Shown one piece after another: positions 8,520-40,319 of a stretch of 41,182 nt of DNA. A program made the translations under genes and the position numbers. The stretch spans positions 1 to 41,182 of the forward strand of contig CAISPN010000010.1 in NCBI GenBank assembly GCA_903887375.1, in the 5' to 3' direction. The notes under the pieces were generated by a model, which saw nothing but the letters and a program-made list of their open reading frames with translations, did not search any database and had not been told where the DNA came from. Source of the stretch: an uncultured cyanobacterium (GTDB lineage: Bacteria; Cyanobacteriota; Cyanobacteriia; Cyanobacteriales; Microcystaceae). Every line of letters starts with the position of its first letter. The stretch's first letter is position 1.

Positions 8520-8894
8520 CTATTGAACTAGACTACATGTAAGTGGACAGAAAGCATATACAGAGTTGTGATTGGGCTCTGCTTTGCCATTGAGCCAACT
8601 TAGCCAACGAACATTTTCGGGATGAATTCCCTTAAAAGTCAGAAAACCAGCACCACCAAATATTGCCAGCAAATGCCCTCCAACGAGTAAACCGGCAACC
8701 AATAAAACCGAACTCATCGGCAATAGGGTATGGAGAATCATGGACAAGAAAGCTCCAAATAGGGCCATTAAAACTATAAAGGGAAACCCTATAACCAAGA
8801 GACTGACCAACAAAGTAAGGGACCATACTGAAAAGGTTTTTGCTAAAACCAAAAAATGAACTCTTCGACTTGTTTTTTGAGTAGTTAATTCCAT
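8520..8894 (-). CDS. Small integral membrane protein, unknown
   Basis: The 124-residue protein has about three hydrophobic helices between residues 15 and 90 (WSLTLLVSLLVIGFPFIVLM and later segments). An AGGAGA lies 8 nt before the ATG at 8894, so translation is well supported. The C-terminal tail contains two cysteines (FCPLTC). No family was recognised. It is monocistronic, flanked by a terminator-like hairpin and by a 428-nt upstream region. Confidence 0.7.
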   Translation of the reverse strand: MELTTQKTSRRVHFLVLAKTFSVWSLTLLVSLLVIGFPFIVLMALFGAFLSMILHTLLPMSSVLLVAGLLVGGHLLAIFGGAGFLTFKGIHPENVRWLSWLNGKAEPNHNSVYAFCPLTCSLVQ

Positions 8895-35291: not shown

Positions 35292-35426
35292 TTGAACTTA
35301 GGGGATTGGCTAACCCGGAATGTAGCATTCAGAGCTGATAGCAAAAAAACTAACCAAATTCCTAATAAGACAAAGATATATTTATCGAATTTTTTAGTTG
35401 TTCTAATTCTGGGCATAGTTACATAA
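35292..35426 (+). CDS. Possible short membrane-anchored ORF (weak)
   Basis: The plus frame here stays open from 35166 to the TAA at 35424-35426. The part free of the DUF29 gene reads EELNLGDWLTRNVAFRADSK, then a hydrophobic end SNFLVVLILGIVT. A TTG at 35292 is the only nearby start and has no convincing ribosome binding site. The opposite strand is also open across 35261-35455, and only one can be real. It could be a decayed gene. Low confidence. Confidence 0.2.
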   Translation: MNLGDWLTRNVAFRADSKKTNQIPNKTKIYLSNFLVVLILGIVT

Positions 35427-35862
35427 TGTGTAAATAAGGAAACAGGGGATGCCAAGTCATAACTGTAGAAACGACAAAAAGAAAAAACATTCCCAAAAAA
35501 ATTATTCTAGAAGAGATATTTTTCTCGCGCCACAATTGATGCAGAACGAACCAGCTACCTAACCAAAAAATTAATAAAATTGTCTCTTTACCTGAATAAC
35601 TGCCAATATTACCCCAGATTTTACTAGGATTATGACTTCCAGCAATCCAGCTACCAAGTGACCAGATAAAACTATCTATACTTTTTGAACTATCAGCAAG
35701 ATGGTGAGAAATCATCATTGCCCAAGCTCCAATTCCGGTAGATAAAAACGCGGCAGCAGCCGGTCCATTATATTTAGGTGATTGTTTTGCTCCTTGTGAG
35801 AAAAAAGTGGGAAACAATTTTAAGCTTTGCCAAATTTTTTCGTAAAATCTTGTTTTATCCAT
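35419..35862 (-). CDS. Small multi-pass membrane protein, unknown
   Basis: This protein of about 147 residues begins with MDKTRFYEKIWQSL at 35862, chosen over an upstream in-frame ATG because it lies 5 nt after the preceding stop. About three helices are seen. Conserved-looking segments are NGPAAAAFLSTGIGAWAMM, ISHHLAD and GKETILLIFWLGSWFVLHQL, with several histidines near the membrane. I do not recognise a function. It is last of a four-gene minus-strand cluster. Confidence 0.65.
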   Translation of the reverse strand: MDKTRFYEKIWQSLKLFPTFFSQGAKQSPKYNGPAAAAFLSTGIGAWAMMISHHLADSSKSIDSFIWSLGSWIAGSHNPSKIWGNIGSYSGKETILLIFWLGSWFVLHQLWREKNISSRIIFLGMFFLFVVSTVMTWHPLFPYLHIM

Positions 35863-35867
35863 AGAAA

Positions 35868-36485
35868 TTAAAGAGCCTTGATTTTGGCTACAGCAAGTCC
35901 TGAGACTAAACCACCAATAGAAAAGAACATAGAGAGTATCAAAGCAAGACAAGTAATCATCAAGACGCTGCGATTGCGCTTTTCTAAAATATCATCGCCA
36001 TAATTCCAAAGAACCCAAGCGCAAGCTGTATTAATTGGTAGGATAAAGAGCACTGAAAATTCGTGAAACTCCATCAAGATATATTGCACAAGAGGAGTAT
36101 TTTCTATCAGCCAAGCCCTAGCCCCACCTGTAGCTAAATTTGCGCGATATCTCATGTAAGCCAGGTTGCCAGTAGCTATTCCAAGAAAGCTCAAAATAGC
36201 TGACCAGAAAGAGAGAGTGCGTATTTGGGGTAAGATAGTGCGCACACGCCTGGCAAGTGGAAAAGCTAGATGTCCTGTATAGGCTGCTATCACAGTTGTA
36301 CTGAGAGCTCCTATGCTGTGAATAGTGCCTATTGAGCGCTGCCAAGGGCTTGGATTGAGAAGATTGACCAATGGTAATGACAAAAACAGCAACGCAGATA
36401 GAAAACTCAATCCATAGATGGCAAGAGTAATAAAATCAGCTTGATTTAACTGCTCAAGAGATTGGTTTTGCTCTTTATTTTCCAT
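35868..36485 (-). CDS. Multi-pass membrane protein with membrane histidines, unknown
   Basis: This 205-residue protein has about five helices. Histidines lie in or near helices in GTIHSIGALSTTVIAAYTGH and LMEFHEFSVLF, which could bind b-type heme or metal, although no named family was recognised. The start codon directly abuts the stop of the secreted-protein gene (36486), strongly implying one operon. The basic loop ARRVRTILPQIR is probably cytoplasmic. Confidence 0.65.
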   Translation of the reverse strand: MENKEQNQSLEQLNQADFITLAIYGLSFLSALLFLSLPLVNLLNPSPWQRSIGTIHSIGALSTTVIAAYTGHLAFPLARRVRTILPQIRTLSFWSAILSFLGIATGNLAYMRYRANLATGGARAWLIENTPLVQYILMEFHEFSVLFILPINTACAWVLWNYGDDILEKRNRSVLMITCLALILSMFFSIGGLVSGLAVAKIKAL

Positions 36486-37442
36486 TTATTGTCTCTTGCG
36501 GTAGCGATTAAAAAGAACTACAGTTGTCGCTGTTAAAACAGCAGCCGGTAATTGGGAAGATTCAGGTACAAAGGCAGTCAAACTAGTAGAGAGAAAAACT
36601 TCAACTTGGTCAGCTCCTCTTTGATAAGCATAATCAACTTCAAGCGGTGCTAGCCCAAAAGATTCGATAGGGATTTGGAATATATTTGAGCCTGGTTCTG
36701 AGCTGATAGGATCTCCATTGTAACCTGCTAAAATCTCTAGATTGGGATCATTCCCACTGACAGTTTTTCCATAAAGACTGATTTCAATTGGTAAATAACT
36801 TCCAGCTGAAAGCTCAAAAGGATTTGCTAGAGGGACAACTTCTAATGGTAAGTTAAAAAAACTACTATTATTGACCTTGGGAGAAAAGCCATTGTAAAGA
36901 GCTTGAGTAAATTTTAGCTCTTGTACTATATTAGAATAGCCATATGCTTGTTGTTGGGCTGGGGTTAGAAAACCTAGGTAATCACTAGGATTGTGTTCTG
37001 TATCCATACCCATGGATGGATCTTGTGCCCAATAACCACCATCAAATGTAGCTGAGATAGCTCCTAAATTAACTTGAGAGGGAACGACAGTAACTGGACT
37101 TTGCTTTGTGCCATCGGCAGGAGTAATCAAGTTGCCATTTATATCATAGATATCAATTGGATTGCCTGATAAATCTACACTAGAAAAAATAGTTCCATTG
37201 GCATCATATACATCGCTGGCTATAATATTACCACTTGTGTCATAGGTGGTAATATTAGCTGTATTACTTTGACCATCAGTTAAACCCTTGAGATCATAGA
37301 CAATAGATTCTGCTTCGGCAAATTCAGCCAACCAAAGTGGATGACTTGTTTGCCCTGAAGTAGATGGTGACCAAAAAATATGAGCTAGAGCAGGTTTAGC
37401 AAAACCCATCAATAAAAGAATTGCCAATGACAGCTTTTTCAT
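36486..37442 (-). CDS. Secreted protein with PEP-CTERM-like sorting tail
   Basis: I chose the ATG at 37442 (MKKLSLAILLLMGFAKPALA), a textbook signal peptide; the frame is open further upstream but without sense as an export signal. Cleavage after ALA leaves His as the first mature residue (HIFWSPSTSG). Residues 67-108 hold four imperfect YD-x-x-G-N units of about ten residues (TYDTSGNIIA, DVYDANGTIF, SVDLSGNPID, IYDINGNLIT). The C-terminus is VPESSQLPAAVLTATTVVLF plus a basic NRYRKRQ, a variant of the PEP-CTERM signal handled by exosortase. An N-terminal His can bind copper in other families; here that is speculation. Confidence 0.72.
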   Translation of the reverse strand: MKKLSLAILLLMGFAKPALAHIFWSPSTSGQTSHPLWLAEFAEAESIVYDLKGLTDGQSNTANITTYDTSGNIIASDVYDANGTIFSSVDLSGNPIDIYDINGNLITPADGTKQSPVTVVPSQVNLGAISATFDGGYWAQDPSMGMDTEHNPSDYLGFLTPAQQQAYGYSNIVQELKFTQALYNGFSPKVNNSSFFNLPLEVVPLANPFELSAGSYLPIEISLYGKTVSGNDPNLEILAGYNGDPISSEPGSNIFQIPIESFGLAPLEVDYAYQRGADQVEVFLSTSLTAFVPESSQLPAAVLTATTVVLFNRYRKRQ

Positions 37443-37517
37443 CTTTATAAATTTGTTAAAGTACAACTTGATTATTCTTTGCTGGCAATTTTTTGTCAAA
37501 CGACAGCCTGTCAAAGT

Positions 37518-40319
37518 TCATCTAACAGCTTGGGCTTTTTGATTCCAAAGTTCGGGTTTTACAGCCAAAGCCATTGCCTGTTGATCTAGTTGCCCACCTA
37601 GAAAACGATTAATACGATTGCTAGAAGAAGCAGGATCTCTAACTACATCGTGATAGTTGATATAGAGCACATCAATACTTGGATATTGGTTGATCATATT
37701 CAAGATTTTTTGAAGATCTCTGATATAAACTTGGGCTAATTTGTCTTTGGCAATATTGCCGCCAGTTTTGTTGAGCTTTTGGAGCATTTTTTCTTGAGAG
37801 GCGATCACTTCTGCCATTGGTCTTTGCATGAAGATAATGCGATATTTTTTCTTTGGTGGTAATTTAGGCAAAAGTTGAACTATGATTTTGACCGCTTTGC
37901 CATTGGCTCCTTCTAGCCAACTGCTATCTTCGGCAAGTTTTTTAACTTGCTCCAGTTCATAATAACCCAAAGGATTATTGGCATCAGCTTCTCTGAGTTG
38001 ATCAGTTAAGACTGGCAGGCCTCCAGCTGCCAACATCTGCATCAGCATAGAGGTGCCAGAGCGGGGTAATCCTGAAACTATGACTATGTTTTCTTCTAGA
38101 TTTGAGGTAGGAAGAGGATCTTCTGTTTGATTAGTGAGTGAATCTAGCCATTCTAAAACCAAGCTAGGAGTTGATTCTAGATTGCCTGCTTTAAATTCTT
38201 TGATTCTTTGGAGGGATTCTTTGGCTAGCAGTCTATATTGATTGGCTTTATCGGCATCTTGGAAGTTCTTGACATAGATAGAACTCAAGTAACGATAAGC
38301 GGCTGGAAAAACGGGATTTTGACTAGTGGCTATTTCCAGAGATTGGATCGCTTCTTTAACTCTGCCAGAGCGATAAAGGGCCATGGCATGAATCAGATGA
38401 GCTTGTGGGTTATGGTAAATAAGCCCCAAGCAGGCTAATGCTTGCTCTATGGCTGATTCTGGTCTGTTTTGTCTTAAATGTACTTTGGCCAGACCCAAAT
38501 GGGCTTCAGCATTAACCGGGTCTAATTCTTGTACTTGCAGGAAGTGAGCTTCAGCTTGCCGATAGTTTTTCTCAGCTAAGTACAAATTGGCAATGCGCTG
38601 ATAGAGACTAGGCAGATCATGCGTTTGGGCTGATTTGGCTTCTTCAAAGAACTTGATGGCCTCACTATAGTTTCCTTCAGCTTGAGCTAGACAGCCGCTC
38701 ATAAAACTTACAGTAGTAGGAGAGATGCCTGCTTTTTTCTGGAGGTTATTAATGCGATTTTTCTCCTGATCACTGTAGTCTTCTGGTTTTTTTTCTTTGA
38801 GACTTTCTATCAATTGCTCTAATTCAACTTTGGCTCTTTCCATAGTTGCTTGTTTGCGCTCTAATATTTTGGCAAAGGTTGAGCGAGCTTCATTGATATT
38901 GTTTAGGGCTAAATAAGCATTGAATAGATGAACTCCAAAGCGGCTCTCGTCAATAAATTCATCCCAGAGCTCTTGATAGATAGGCGCTGCATCGATTTCT
39001 CTACCAGCTCCTACATAGGATCTAGCCAGATTGTAGCGCAATTCTCTGATGGTTTCTGCTCTTGCTTTTTCTTTACTACCATCGAGCTCGTCAATATAAC
39101 CCAAGTCAACAAGGTGTTTGAGCGCTTCGGCTGAGTTGATTGAATCGATCCTCATATCAGGTGGATGCATGGCGCTATCTCCTTCAACTTCATCCCAACT
39201 ATCGATATACTCTACTTGGGTATCTCTATCAAGGGCATTAAGTAGTACTTTGCCTTCCATATCTCTACCTACTGGTAAGCCAAAGATGCTCAAAATCGTA
39301 GGGGTTACATCCAGCAAGCTAGCCCCGAAGATAACTTCATCTTTTTTGATGCCGGGACCACACATAGCGATGATTCCAAAAGGCCTATGTTCTTCAGCCG
39401 GGCCTGCTGGCTCGTTGGGAATATATTGCGGTCTTAAGCGATCTGGATGGAAACCATGATCTGAAACTATTATGATGGTGGTATCTGGGCCAGCTAGCTC
39501 CATCATTACCCCCAACATAAAGTCATGATAGCAATAGCCAGTTTCTATCACCTGAGAGTAAAGATCAAAATCCTCTTGAGATATCCAAGAAGATTTGGGT
39601 GGATGGTAGCGCATGAAGCCATGGCCAAAGTGGTCAATGGCATCAAAATAAACTCCCATAAAATCCCACGGCTCTAGTTGCATAATACCAGTAGCGGCAG
39701 CTTGAATAGTGGAGCATTCTGCCAAGATCTTGGCTACGCTATAGAGTCTTTTGTCTTTATCTTGATCTATTTCTCTGGCTTTCGGGACAAAGGGCTCTAG
39801 TTGCTCGCCTTGGATCTCCAGAGGATGAATTCTTAATCTGGCCAATGGTTCAATCAATCTTTCTGGATGGATGGTACCTTTGGGCATAGGCCAGGGCTTA
39901 CCCAACTCGGCTACAGATTCTTGATAGTGATTAGAGACCATCACTCCATTAATGGGCTCTACGGGATAGGAAGGCCACCAACCAACTACATTGCAGCGTT
40001 TTCCTTCCTGGTTGAGGATATTCCAAATCGCTTTGGTGGTGCGGGCTAGATTAGTGATGGGTCTGACTCCCCCAGTTTGAGGATCTGGCTCACTAAAACC
40101 ATGCACGCCATGACCATAAGCTCTTTTGCCAGTAGCAATCGAGGTCCAAAGTACTGGAGAAAGGATAGGATAAAGTGTAGCGAGATTACCCATCACCCCT
40201 TGCTCTAAAAACCTTTTCATATTAGGCATTTTGCCCGCATCCACCAGCGGAGCAATTACTTTCCAATCAGCAGCATCCCAACCAATCAAAAGTACTTTAT
40301 TCGAAAGAGCTTTAGCCAT
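37518..40319 (-). CDS. Alkaline-phosphatase-superfamily phosphodiesterase with TPR and sulfotransferase domains
   Basis: This 933-residue protein has three parts. Residues 1-370 form a type I phosphodiesterase/nucleotide pyrophosphatase domain with metal ligands in GWDAADW (Asp15), FDAIDHFGHGF, IIVSDHGFHPD and AEEHRPFG; the probable nucleophile is Ser54 in LSPVLWTS. Residues about 400-690 hold TPR repeats (for example AEAHLGLAKVHLRQNRPESA). Residues about 740-933 are a sulfotransferase with the PAPS loop IVSGLPRSGTSMLMQML. No signal peptide is seen, so it should be cytoplasmic. It may modify a surface glycan or lipid precursor. It is first of a minus-strand cluster with the secreted PEP-CTERM-like protein 75 nt downstream. 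Confidence 0.88.
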   Translation of the reverse strand: MAKALSNKVLLIGWDAADWKVIAPLVDAGKMPNMKRFLEQGVMGNLATLYPILSPVLWTSIATGKRAYGHGVHGFSEPDPQTGGVRPITNLARTTKAIWNILNQEGKRCNVVGWWPSYPVEPINGVMVSNHYQESVAELGKPWPMPKGTIHPERLIEPLARLRIHPLEIQGEQLEPFVPKAREIDQDKDKRLYSVAKILAECSTIQAAATGIMQLEPWDFMGVYFDAIDHFGHGFMRYHPPKSSWISQEDFDLYSQVIETGYCYHDFMLGVMMELAGPDTTIIIVSDHGFHPDRLRPQYIPNEPAGPAEEHRPFGIIAMCGPGIKKDEVIFGASLLDVTPTILSIFGLPVGRDMEGKVLLNALDRDTQVEYIDSWDEVEGDSAMHPPDMRIDSINSAEALKHLVDLGYIDELDGSKEKARAETIRELRYNLARSYVGAGREIDAAPIYQELWDEFIDESRFGVHLFNAYLALNNINEARSTFAKILERKQATMERAKVELEQLIESLKEKKPEDYSDQEKNRINNLQKKAGISPTTVSFMSGCLAQAEGNYSEAIKFFEEAKSAQTHDLPSLYQRIANLYLAEKNYRQAEAHFLQVQELDPVNAEAHLGLAKVHLRQNRPESAIEQALACLGLIYHNPQAHLIHAMALYRSGRVKEAIQSLEIATSQNPVFPAAYRYLSSIYVKNFQDADKANQYRLLAKESLQRIKEFKAGNLESTPSLVLEWLDSLTNQTEDPLPTSNLEENIVIVSGLPRSGTSMLMQMLAAGGLPVLTDQLREADANNPLGYYELEQVKKLAEDSSWLEGANGKAVKIIVQLLPKLPPKKKYRIIFMQRPMAEVIASQEKMLQKLNKTGGNIAKDKLAQVYIRDLQKILNMINQYPSIDVLYINYHDVVRDPASSSNRINRFLGGQLDQQAMALAVKPELWNQKAQAVR

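Follow-up and report, generated by a model that had tools for sequence, protein, structure and literature searches.

Iron and other metals often limit cyanobacteria, whose means of moving metals across the envelope are incompletely known. The closest described system to the locus reported here is that of ZepA (All3515), the zinc exoprotein of Anabaena, which combines a PEP-CTERM tail and a metal role with a histidine at the mature N terminus (PMC10957091); its description mentions neither DUF4198 nor NikK. Characterized DUF4198/NikK proteins (IsDUF4198, PDB 9GCB, and Zcp, 9MHI–9MHO) share an export signal, a mature N-terminal histidine and a beta-sandwich fold. IsDUF4198 is reported to bind nickel through its N-terminal histidine and a second one, His18 (PMC12537917), and orphan NikK proteins lacking NikMQO have been noted (PMC2667541). 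Further studies record that the DUF4198 genes in Caulobacter are members of the Fur regulon and respond to iron limitation with strong induction (PMC3751524), that insertions in an operon containing a DUF4198 gene reduced fitness with ethylenediaminetetraacetic acid (PMC11870441), and that one DUF4198 gene was lowered in a zur mutant (PMC4176598). Reductive iron uptake is described as employing a reductase, a multicopper oxidase and FTR1, as in yeast Fet3–Ftr1 and cyanobacterial cFTR1 (PMC7676907). We analyzed a 41,182-nucleotide stretch of DNA from an uncultured cyanobacterium of the Microcystaceae (the whole stretch is called the window below), in which a gene for a surface protein with a predicted NikK fold and one apparently changed metal ligand (PEP) is joined to genes for a conserved, undescribed membrane module (MP1, MP2 and SMP); this combination appears to be new.

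The four genes, PEP-MP1-MP2-SMP, form a unit on the minus strand that is one gene longer than first described, with the following parts:

36486..37442, minus strand: PEP, a predicted secreted protein of 318 amino acids with a DUF4198/NikK fold
37383..37442, minus strand: predicted signal peptide of PEP, residues 1–20, which would leave His21 at the mature start
37131..37244, minus strand: lineage-specific repeat insert of PEP, residues 67–104
36489..36569, minus strand: divergent PEP-CTERM-like tail of PEP, read from the sequence as VPES, a hydrophobic stretch and RYRKRQ
35868..36485, minus strand: MP1, a predicted multi-helix membrane protein of 205 amino acids with invariant H56, H72 and H141
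35419..35862, minus strand: MP2, a predicted membrane protein of 147 amino acids with conserved H54 and H138 and a WG..GSY.GKET segment
35261..35416, minus strand: SMP, a predicted one-helix membrane protein of 51 amino acids

PEP runs from an ATG at 37442 to a stop at 36488–36486, and the ATG of MP1 follows directly at 36485, with 0 nucleotides between; MP1 stops at 35870–35868, and MP2 starts at 35862, 5 nucleotides past that stop, and ends at 35419. These coordinates agree with the head-to-tail arrangement and the spacings of 0 and 5 nucleotides given in the original prediction, which was made from the DNA letters and recognized PEP and the two larger membrane proteins. It overlooked the fourth gene, SMP, which starts 2 nucleotides past the MP2 stop. 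A profile of SMP proteins from other genomes, which excluded those of the window and of the syntenic locus described below (L141), recovered the window SMP at E 9.6e-12 and the L141 SMP at E 5.3e-10 among 270 open reading frames.

The family of PEP emerged from profile and structure comparisons. The protein scored 26.4 bits (E 9e-6) against Pfam DUF4198, below the gathering score of 34 bits, which its L141 ortholog exceeded with 46.7 bits. The PEP sequence alone found no PDB match at E<=10, whereas a profile of PEP and relatives (nine) reached 9GCB, named NikK in its structure file, at E 4.9e-16 and the Zcp structures at E 2e-8 (9MHI and kin, whose molecule field reads formyltransferase and whose entry titles name Zcp in zinc-, copper- or cobalt-bound form). 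When the AlphaFold2 model of PEP (predicted local distance difference test score 70.8) was searched with Foldseek, all nine matches at E<=0.001 were 9GCB or Zcp, with 9GCB ranked first (E 2e-9). In VIA comparisons the model aligned to 9GCB with Z 17.0 (root-mean-square deviation 3.4, 201 aligned) and to Zcp with Z 15.2–15.7, and the next row after these reached only Z 4.0. As modeled, PEP is a divergent DUF4198/NikK-fold protein. Relatives came from whole-genome searches and synteny; searching genome contigs with PEP alone returned 91 pattern stretches and no relative. Matches were present in 9/148 genomes of the order and 14/388 genomes of the class (the window's genome is counted in both), and eight of these 14 were weak and partial (E 1e-7 to 1e-3).

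In an alignment of 12 proteins, including that of the window, A20, H21 and W24 of PEP were invariant; L077, which nearly duplicates L075/L076, was excluded from the alignment, as were the fragment L090 and the distant L091–L098. Cleavage after A20, as predicted from the sequence, would make H21 the first residue of mature PEP, and the N-terminal histidine proposed earlier is in this respect conserved. The position of the second ligand, His18, holds histidine in 10 of the 12 proteins and glutamate in the other two, PEP of the window (Glu40) and its L141 ortholog. H34 of PEP was considered as a second ligand and dropped, being absent from the ortholog. None of the other 11 proteins has an equivalent of the repeat insert; the four YDxxGN repeats ascribed to PEP are found with a looser pattern, [YV]Dx[SN]G[NT] (residues 67, 79, 89 and 99), and the strict motif occurs just twice (residues 67 and 99). 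PEP thus resembles the described DUF4198/NikK proteins in its export signal, predicted mature N-terminal histidine and fold, and differs from them in the glutamate at His18, the insert, the PEP-CTERM-like tail and its joining to MP1-MP2-SMP in place of NikMQO or a TonB receptor. Neither PEP of the window nor that of L141 contains the zinc motif of ZepA, H-x(2,9)-H-[FY]-H.

The neighborhoods of PEP relatives also bear on function. Metal-type genes were found near six of the 11 relatives examined (L070–L077 and L222–L224), and none was recognized near the other five. Domain scans of the neighbors identified an ArsR-type regulator, a CobW-type GTPase, ZnuA and CbiM, and a CobW-like gene at L072 and a metal-type ABC set at L222 were judged by eye; the ArsR-type regulator is weak evidence of a metal role. 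Because PEP has a predicted DUF4198/NikK fold, an invariant histidine and relatives of which six have metal genes beside them, we regard metal handling by this N-terminal-His protein, which had been raised as a possibility, as well supported. At one of the relatives, L224 (6313–11144; G186:C5), the DUF4198 gene lies near CbiM/CbiQ-type ECF genes and near two short proteins that would likewise begin with histidine once the signal is cleaved. Elsewhere in the window's genome there is a broken PEP paralog (G000:C74:78675-78812; L078 about 8676–8813): 46 residues of a short open frame match PEP residues 44–89 at 72% identity, and a transposase-like remnant comes next.

The VPES stretch first proposed as a sorting tail of PEP is present in the sequence, and in the L141 ortholog the tail takes a canonical form (VPEPSS) that scores above both the Pfam and the NCBIfam PEP-CTERM cut-offs; the window's own tail was missed by TIGR02595 at E<=1e-3, which matched at three other places in the genome. 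An exosortase is encoded in the genome as well, a cyanoexosortase A scoring 274.3 bits against a cut-off of 150. Judged from these matches, exosortase processing of the PEP tail is likely. A separate gene (L081 7077–8693; G000:C99) encodes a fusion of a cyanoexosortase-A-like part (112.4 bits, below the cut-off) and a cyanoexosortase-A-associated part (118.5 bits against a cut-off of 100).

The membrane proteins proved far more widespread than PEP. MP1 relatives occur in 28/388 genomes of the class, most of them 56–69% identical, and its reading frame is therefore no chance one; within the family, 12/50 genomes gave matches. A contig scan yielded 88 MP1 relatives, of which 80 were studied (all counts out of 80 refer to these). 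MP2 adjoins MP1 in 77/80 loci, on the same strand in all 77, and SMP follows MP2 in 72 of these 77, with a contig end accounting for one of the five misses; this profile count supersedes those from a strict text pattern (46/80) and BLAST (63/80). When each locus contributed a single row and duplicate rows were dropped, MP1 H56 and H72 were histidine in 77/77 and H141 in 78/78, and MP2 H54 was histidine in 76/76 and H138 in 76/77. The MP1 alignment comprised 18 of 27 loci, with fragments and near copies excluded; a hydropathy scan found fewer MP1 helices than the AlphaFold model and was not used. These sequence comparisons, which range from Nostoc to Microcystis, indicate that MP1, MP2 and SMP make up an unnamed module, conserved in cyanobacteria and with five near-invariant histidines. 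The histidines to which the original prediction pointed thus proved conserved, and so did the membrane gene set; the full cluster with PEP was present at just 1/80 loci.

Searches for a known relative of the module returned little. In the PDB, the profiles of MP1 and MP2 had nothing better than weak matches (best E 0.097 and 2.3, respectively), the MP1 model had no Foldseek match at E<=0.001, 18 MP1 proteins had only scattered weak matches in Pfam, and plasmid searches with MP1 and with PEP found no match. In our literature searches we recognized no description of MP1-MP2-SMP or of a DUF4198 protein joined to it, which is weak evidence of novelty, unnamed proteins being hard to find by words. 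At one locus (L225, 7883–9296; G516), MP2 appears to be split by a transposase-like open reading frame between MP1 and SMP.

The genes around the module suggest a link to metal uptake. Within about 8 kb of MP1 where the contig allowed (gene names being taken from Pfam on L034 proteins), FTR1 was present at 33, a ferritin-like gene at 35, CbiM at 29 and a multicopper oxidase gene at 21 of the 80 loci, and a lipoprotein with a helix-hairpin-helix motif at 21. At least one of the first four accompanied MP1 at 39/80 loci, and at 25/41 loci of 16 kb or more; these loci are not independent, many being from Nostocaceae or Microcoleaceae. The conservation of the module and its frequent position among iron and cobalt/nickel uptake genes make it a ready knock-out target. 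A secreted RTX-repeat protein cluster was also found near MP1 at 20/80 loci, and the scanned example (L104 6013–7881) has RTX calcium-binding repeats; the RTX-repeat protein is possibly a further surface partner of the membrane module.

The full unit recurs in one other genome. PEP, MP1, MP2 and SMP lie in the same order at L141, in a metagenome-assembled genome of Chlorogloea purpurea SAG 13.99, whose PEP is 39% identical to that of the window. The two loci also share a site upstream of PEP, which in the window stands beside a promoter-like site:

37497..37515, minus strand: 19-base site containing the palindrome GACAG-G-CTGTC
37471..37499, minus strand: promoter-like site TTGACA-17-AATAAT

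Of the 19 bases around the palindrome, 18 are the same in the window and upstream of the L141 operon. The genome holds four palindrome sites at <=3 mismatches, including a single exact one, as against four for the reversed pattern, and among 221 loci the 14-base palindrome core was found only in four copies of the window's place and in L141. The promoter-like site matches at 11/12 positions and lies in the 75-nucleotide gap between PEP and the upstream gene; shuffling the gap 5000 times gave an equal match 12 times, and such sites were no commoner over the surrounding 6.1 kb than in shuffles (17 versus 15.3). A phylogeny of 79 MP1 proteins, from which rows under 180 amino acids were excluded, placed the window and L141 as sisters (support 99/94). 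Long branches lead to both (0.91 and 0.56), the tool flagged long rows as unsure, and a shared long-branch effect may lie behind the grouping; by identity the window MP1 is closest to that of L112 (67%) and not to L141. From these comparisons we read PEP-MP1-MP2-SMP as an inherited, probably regulated unit of one lineage.

The explanation that we favor, and consider on balance probable, is that the four genes constitute a cell-envelope metal acquisition module that captures metal at the surface, iron being the likeliest, and employs a new membrane complex. In its first step, which is well supported, PEP would be exported, fold as a DUF4198/NikK beta-sandwich and bind a divalent transition metal through its mature N-terminal histidine. 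Glu40, replacing the second histidine of the family, would complete the site and make it favor a harder ion, with iron the likeliest, and cyanoexosortase A would process the tail, such that PEP either stays at the envelope temporarily or is released outside. A complex of MP1, MP2 and SMP, as their gene order and conserved histidines suggest, might then serve uptake by taking over the metal from PEP or by altering the redox state of the metal. Other cyanobacteria would use this complex on its own, frequently with FTR1, a ferritin-like protein, a multicopper oxidase and CbiM encoded nearby. We infer the identity of the metal and the membrane mechanism: iron is named as the likeliest metal because the module lies most often near FTR1 and ferritin-like genes and because the second ligand is now glutamate. 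The window thereby adds a candidate surface metal-binding partner with an apparently altered metal site, and would offer orphan NikK-type proteins a testable home.

Several observations weigh against this explanation. PEP lies beside MP1 at just 1/80 loci (L141, by both BLAST and profile) and at 0/27 loci of the earlier MP1 set, and its link to the module may therefore be lineage-specific; the palindrome, likewise, was at no other MP1 operon among the loci compared. PEP, judging by the alignment, lacks the His18 ligand of its family, and the characterized DUF4198 protein 9GCB is reported to prefer nickel, not iron (PMC12537917). None of the four metal genes occurs at 41/80 MP1 loci, in part owing to short contigs, or at 16/41 loci of 16 kb or more. 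Although genes of FTR1–multicopper oxidase uptake adjoin MP1-MP2-SMP in many cyanobacteria, the sole FTR1 match of the window's genome is on a separate contig (C101), and the genome has no Cu-oxidase_3 match. Nor does it have a CbiM/NikM match (PF01891), and strict NikK works with NikMQO. Finally, no convincing Fur or Zur box was found upstream of PEP, the best hit to a 7-1-7 Zur/Fur-like consensus matching 10/15 positions.

The same module might, alternatively, serve another metal, with PEP acting as an orphan NikK-like nickel or cobalt protein or a zinc scavenger and MP1-MP2-SMP replacing the missing NikMQO permease. The nickel preference of 9GCB, the CbiM genes near MP1, the ZnuA, CobW-type and CbiM genes near PEP relatives, the lack of a CbiM match in this genome and the orphan NikK proteins on record are all consistent with such a role. 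We nevertheless hold it to be a tentative alternative, since FTR1 and ferritin-like genes occur near MP1 more often than CbiM does, FTR1 is also present at 25 of the 29 CbiM loci, and His18 is replaced by glutamate. PEP might instead be a chance or passive neighbor, having landed upstream of a membrane operon to which it is unrelated and with which it shares no work, as would fit its pairing with MP1 in only two related genomes and the closeness of the window MP1 to that of L112; this we find unlikely, given that the PEP stop directly abuts the MP1 start, that the order is kept in L141 despite the divergence of PEP, and that both loci share the upstream palindrome. A wider cell-surface (glycan) system, which the original prediction had drawn to include the upstream phosphodiesterase-sulfotransferase, has in its favor that the genes are adjacent on the same strand, 75 nucleotides apart. 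It is very improbable: the promoter-like site falls within that gap, none of the 80 MP1 loci gave a match to the enzyme (blastp E<=1e-6), and it does not flank the syntenic operon of L141. The enzyme looks separate from the PEP operon.

The remaining alternative, also unlikely in our estimation, is that MP1-MP2-SMP forms a complex that bears heme for redox work or handles heme, as either a b-type reductase or a CcsA relative, with PEP supplying or shielding the metal substrate of that complex. The five near-invariant histidines would suit such a complex, and MP2 resembles CcsA/CcmC (PF01578) in a short WG...S[WY]..KET..LI.WL segment with a conserved histidine on either side. The hhalign score of MP2 against the CcsA WWD segment, 31.9, exceeds those of 100 column shuffles (<=22.9), the reversed alignment (13.8) and seven other families (11.7–19.9); its probability, however, is just 23% over 39 columns, the W and D of WWD are absent, and MP2 is under half the length of CcsA/CcmC. 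At E<=0.1, 9/18 MP2 proteins matched PF01578 (best 9e-5), that of the window not among them, but in a scan of ten MP2 proteins the five matches (13.5–22.2 bits) all fell below the cut-off of 29.9. For MP1, cytochrome bd (Z 12.5) and b561 (Z 11.1) chains were among the best VIA rows, yet these tied with designed bundles and lay below the tool's noise level for helical bundles, and MP1 had no heme family match in Pfam. Heme in MP1-MP2-SMP is thus a lead only; metal or heme handling at the membrane, which the earlier proposal raised, is possible in light of the invariant histidines and the frequent iron and cobalt/nickel uptake neighbors. A bolder version, for which we would claim still less, makes MP1-MP2-SMP a new type of heme-containing metal reductase in cyanobacteria, the one lacking so far from the FTR1–multicopper oxidase route; in the window it would receive iron directly from a surface protein with the NikK fold and a His/Glu site. 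If true, orphan NikK-type proteins would gain a membrane partner.

The gene upstream of PEP is itself unusual in the combination of domains that it encodes: at 37518–40319 of the window, a single protein carries type I phosphodiesterase, TPR and sulfotransferase domains.

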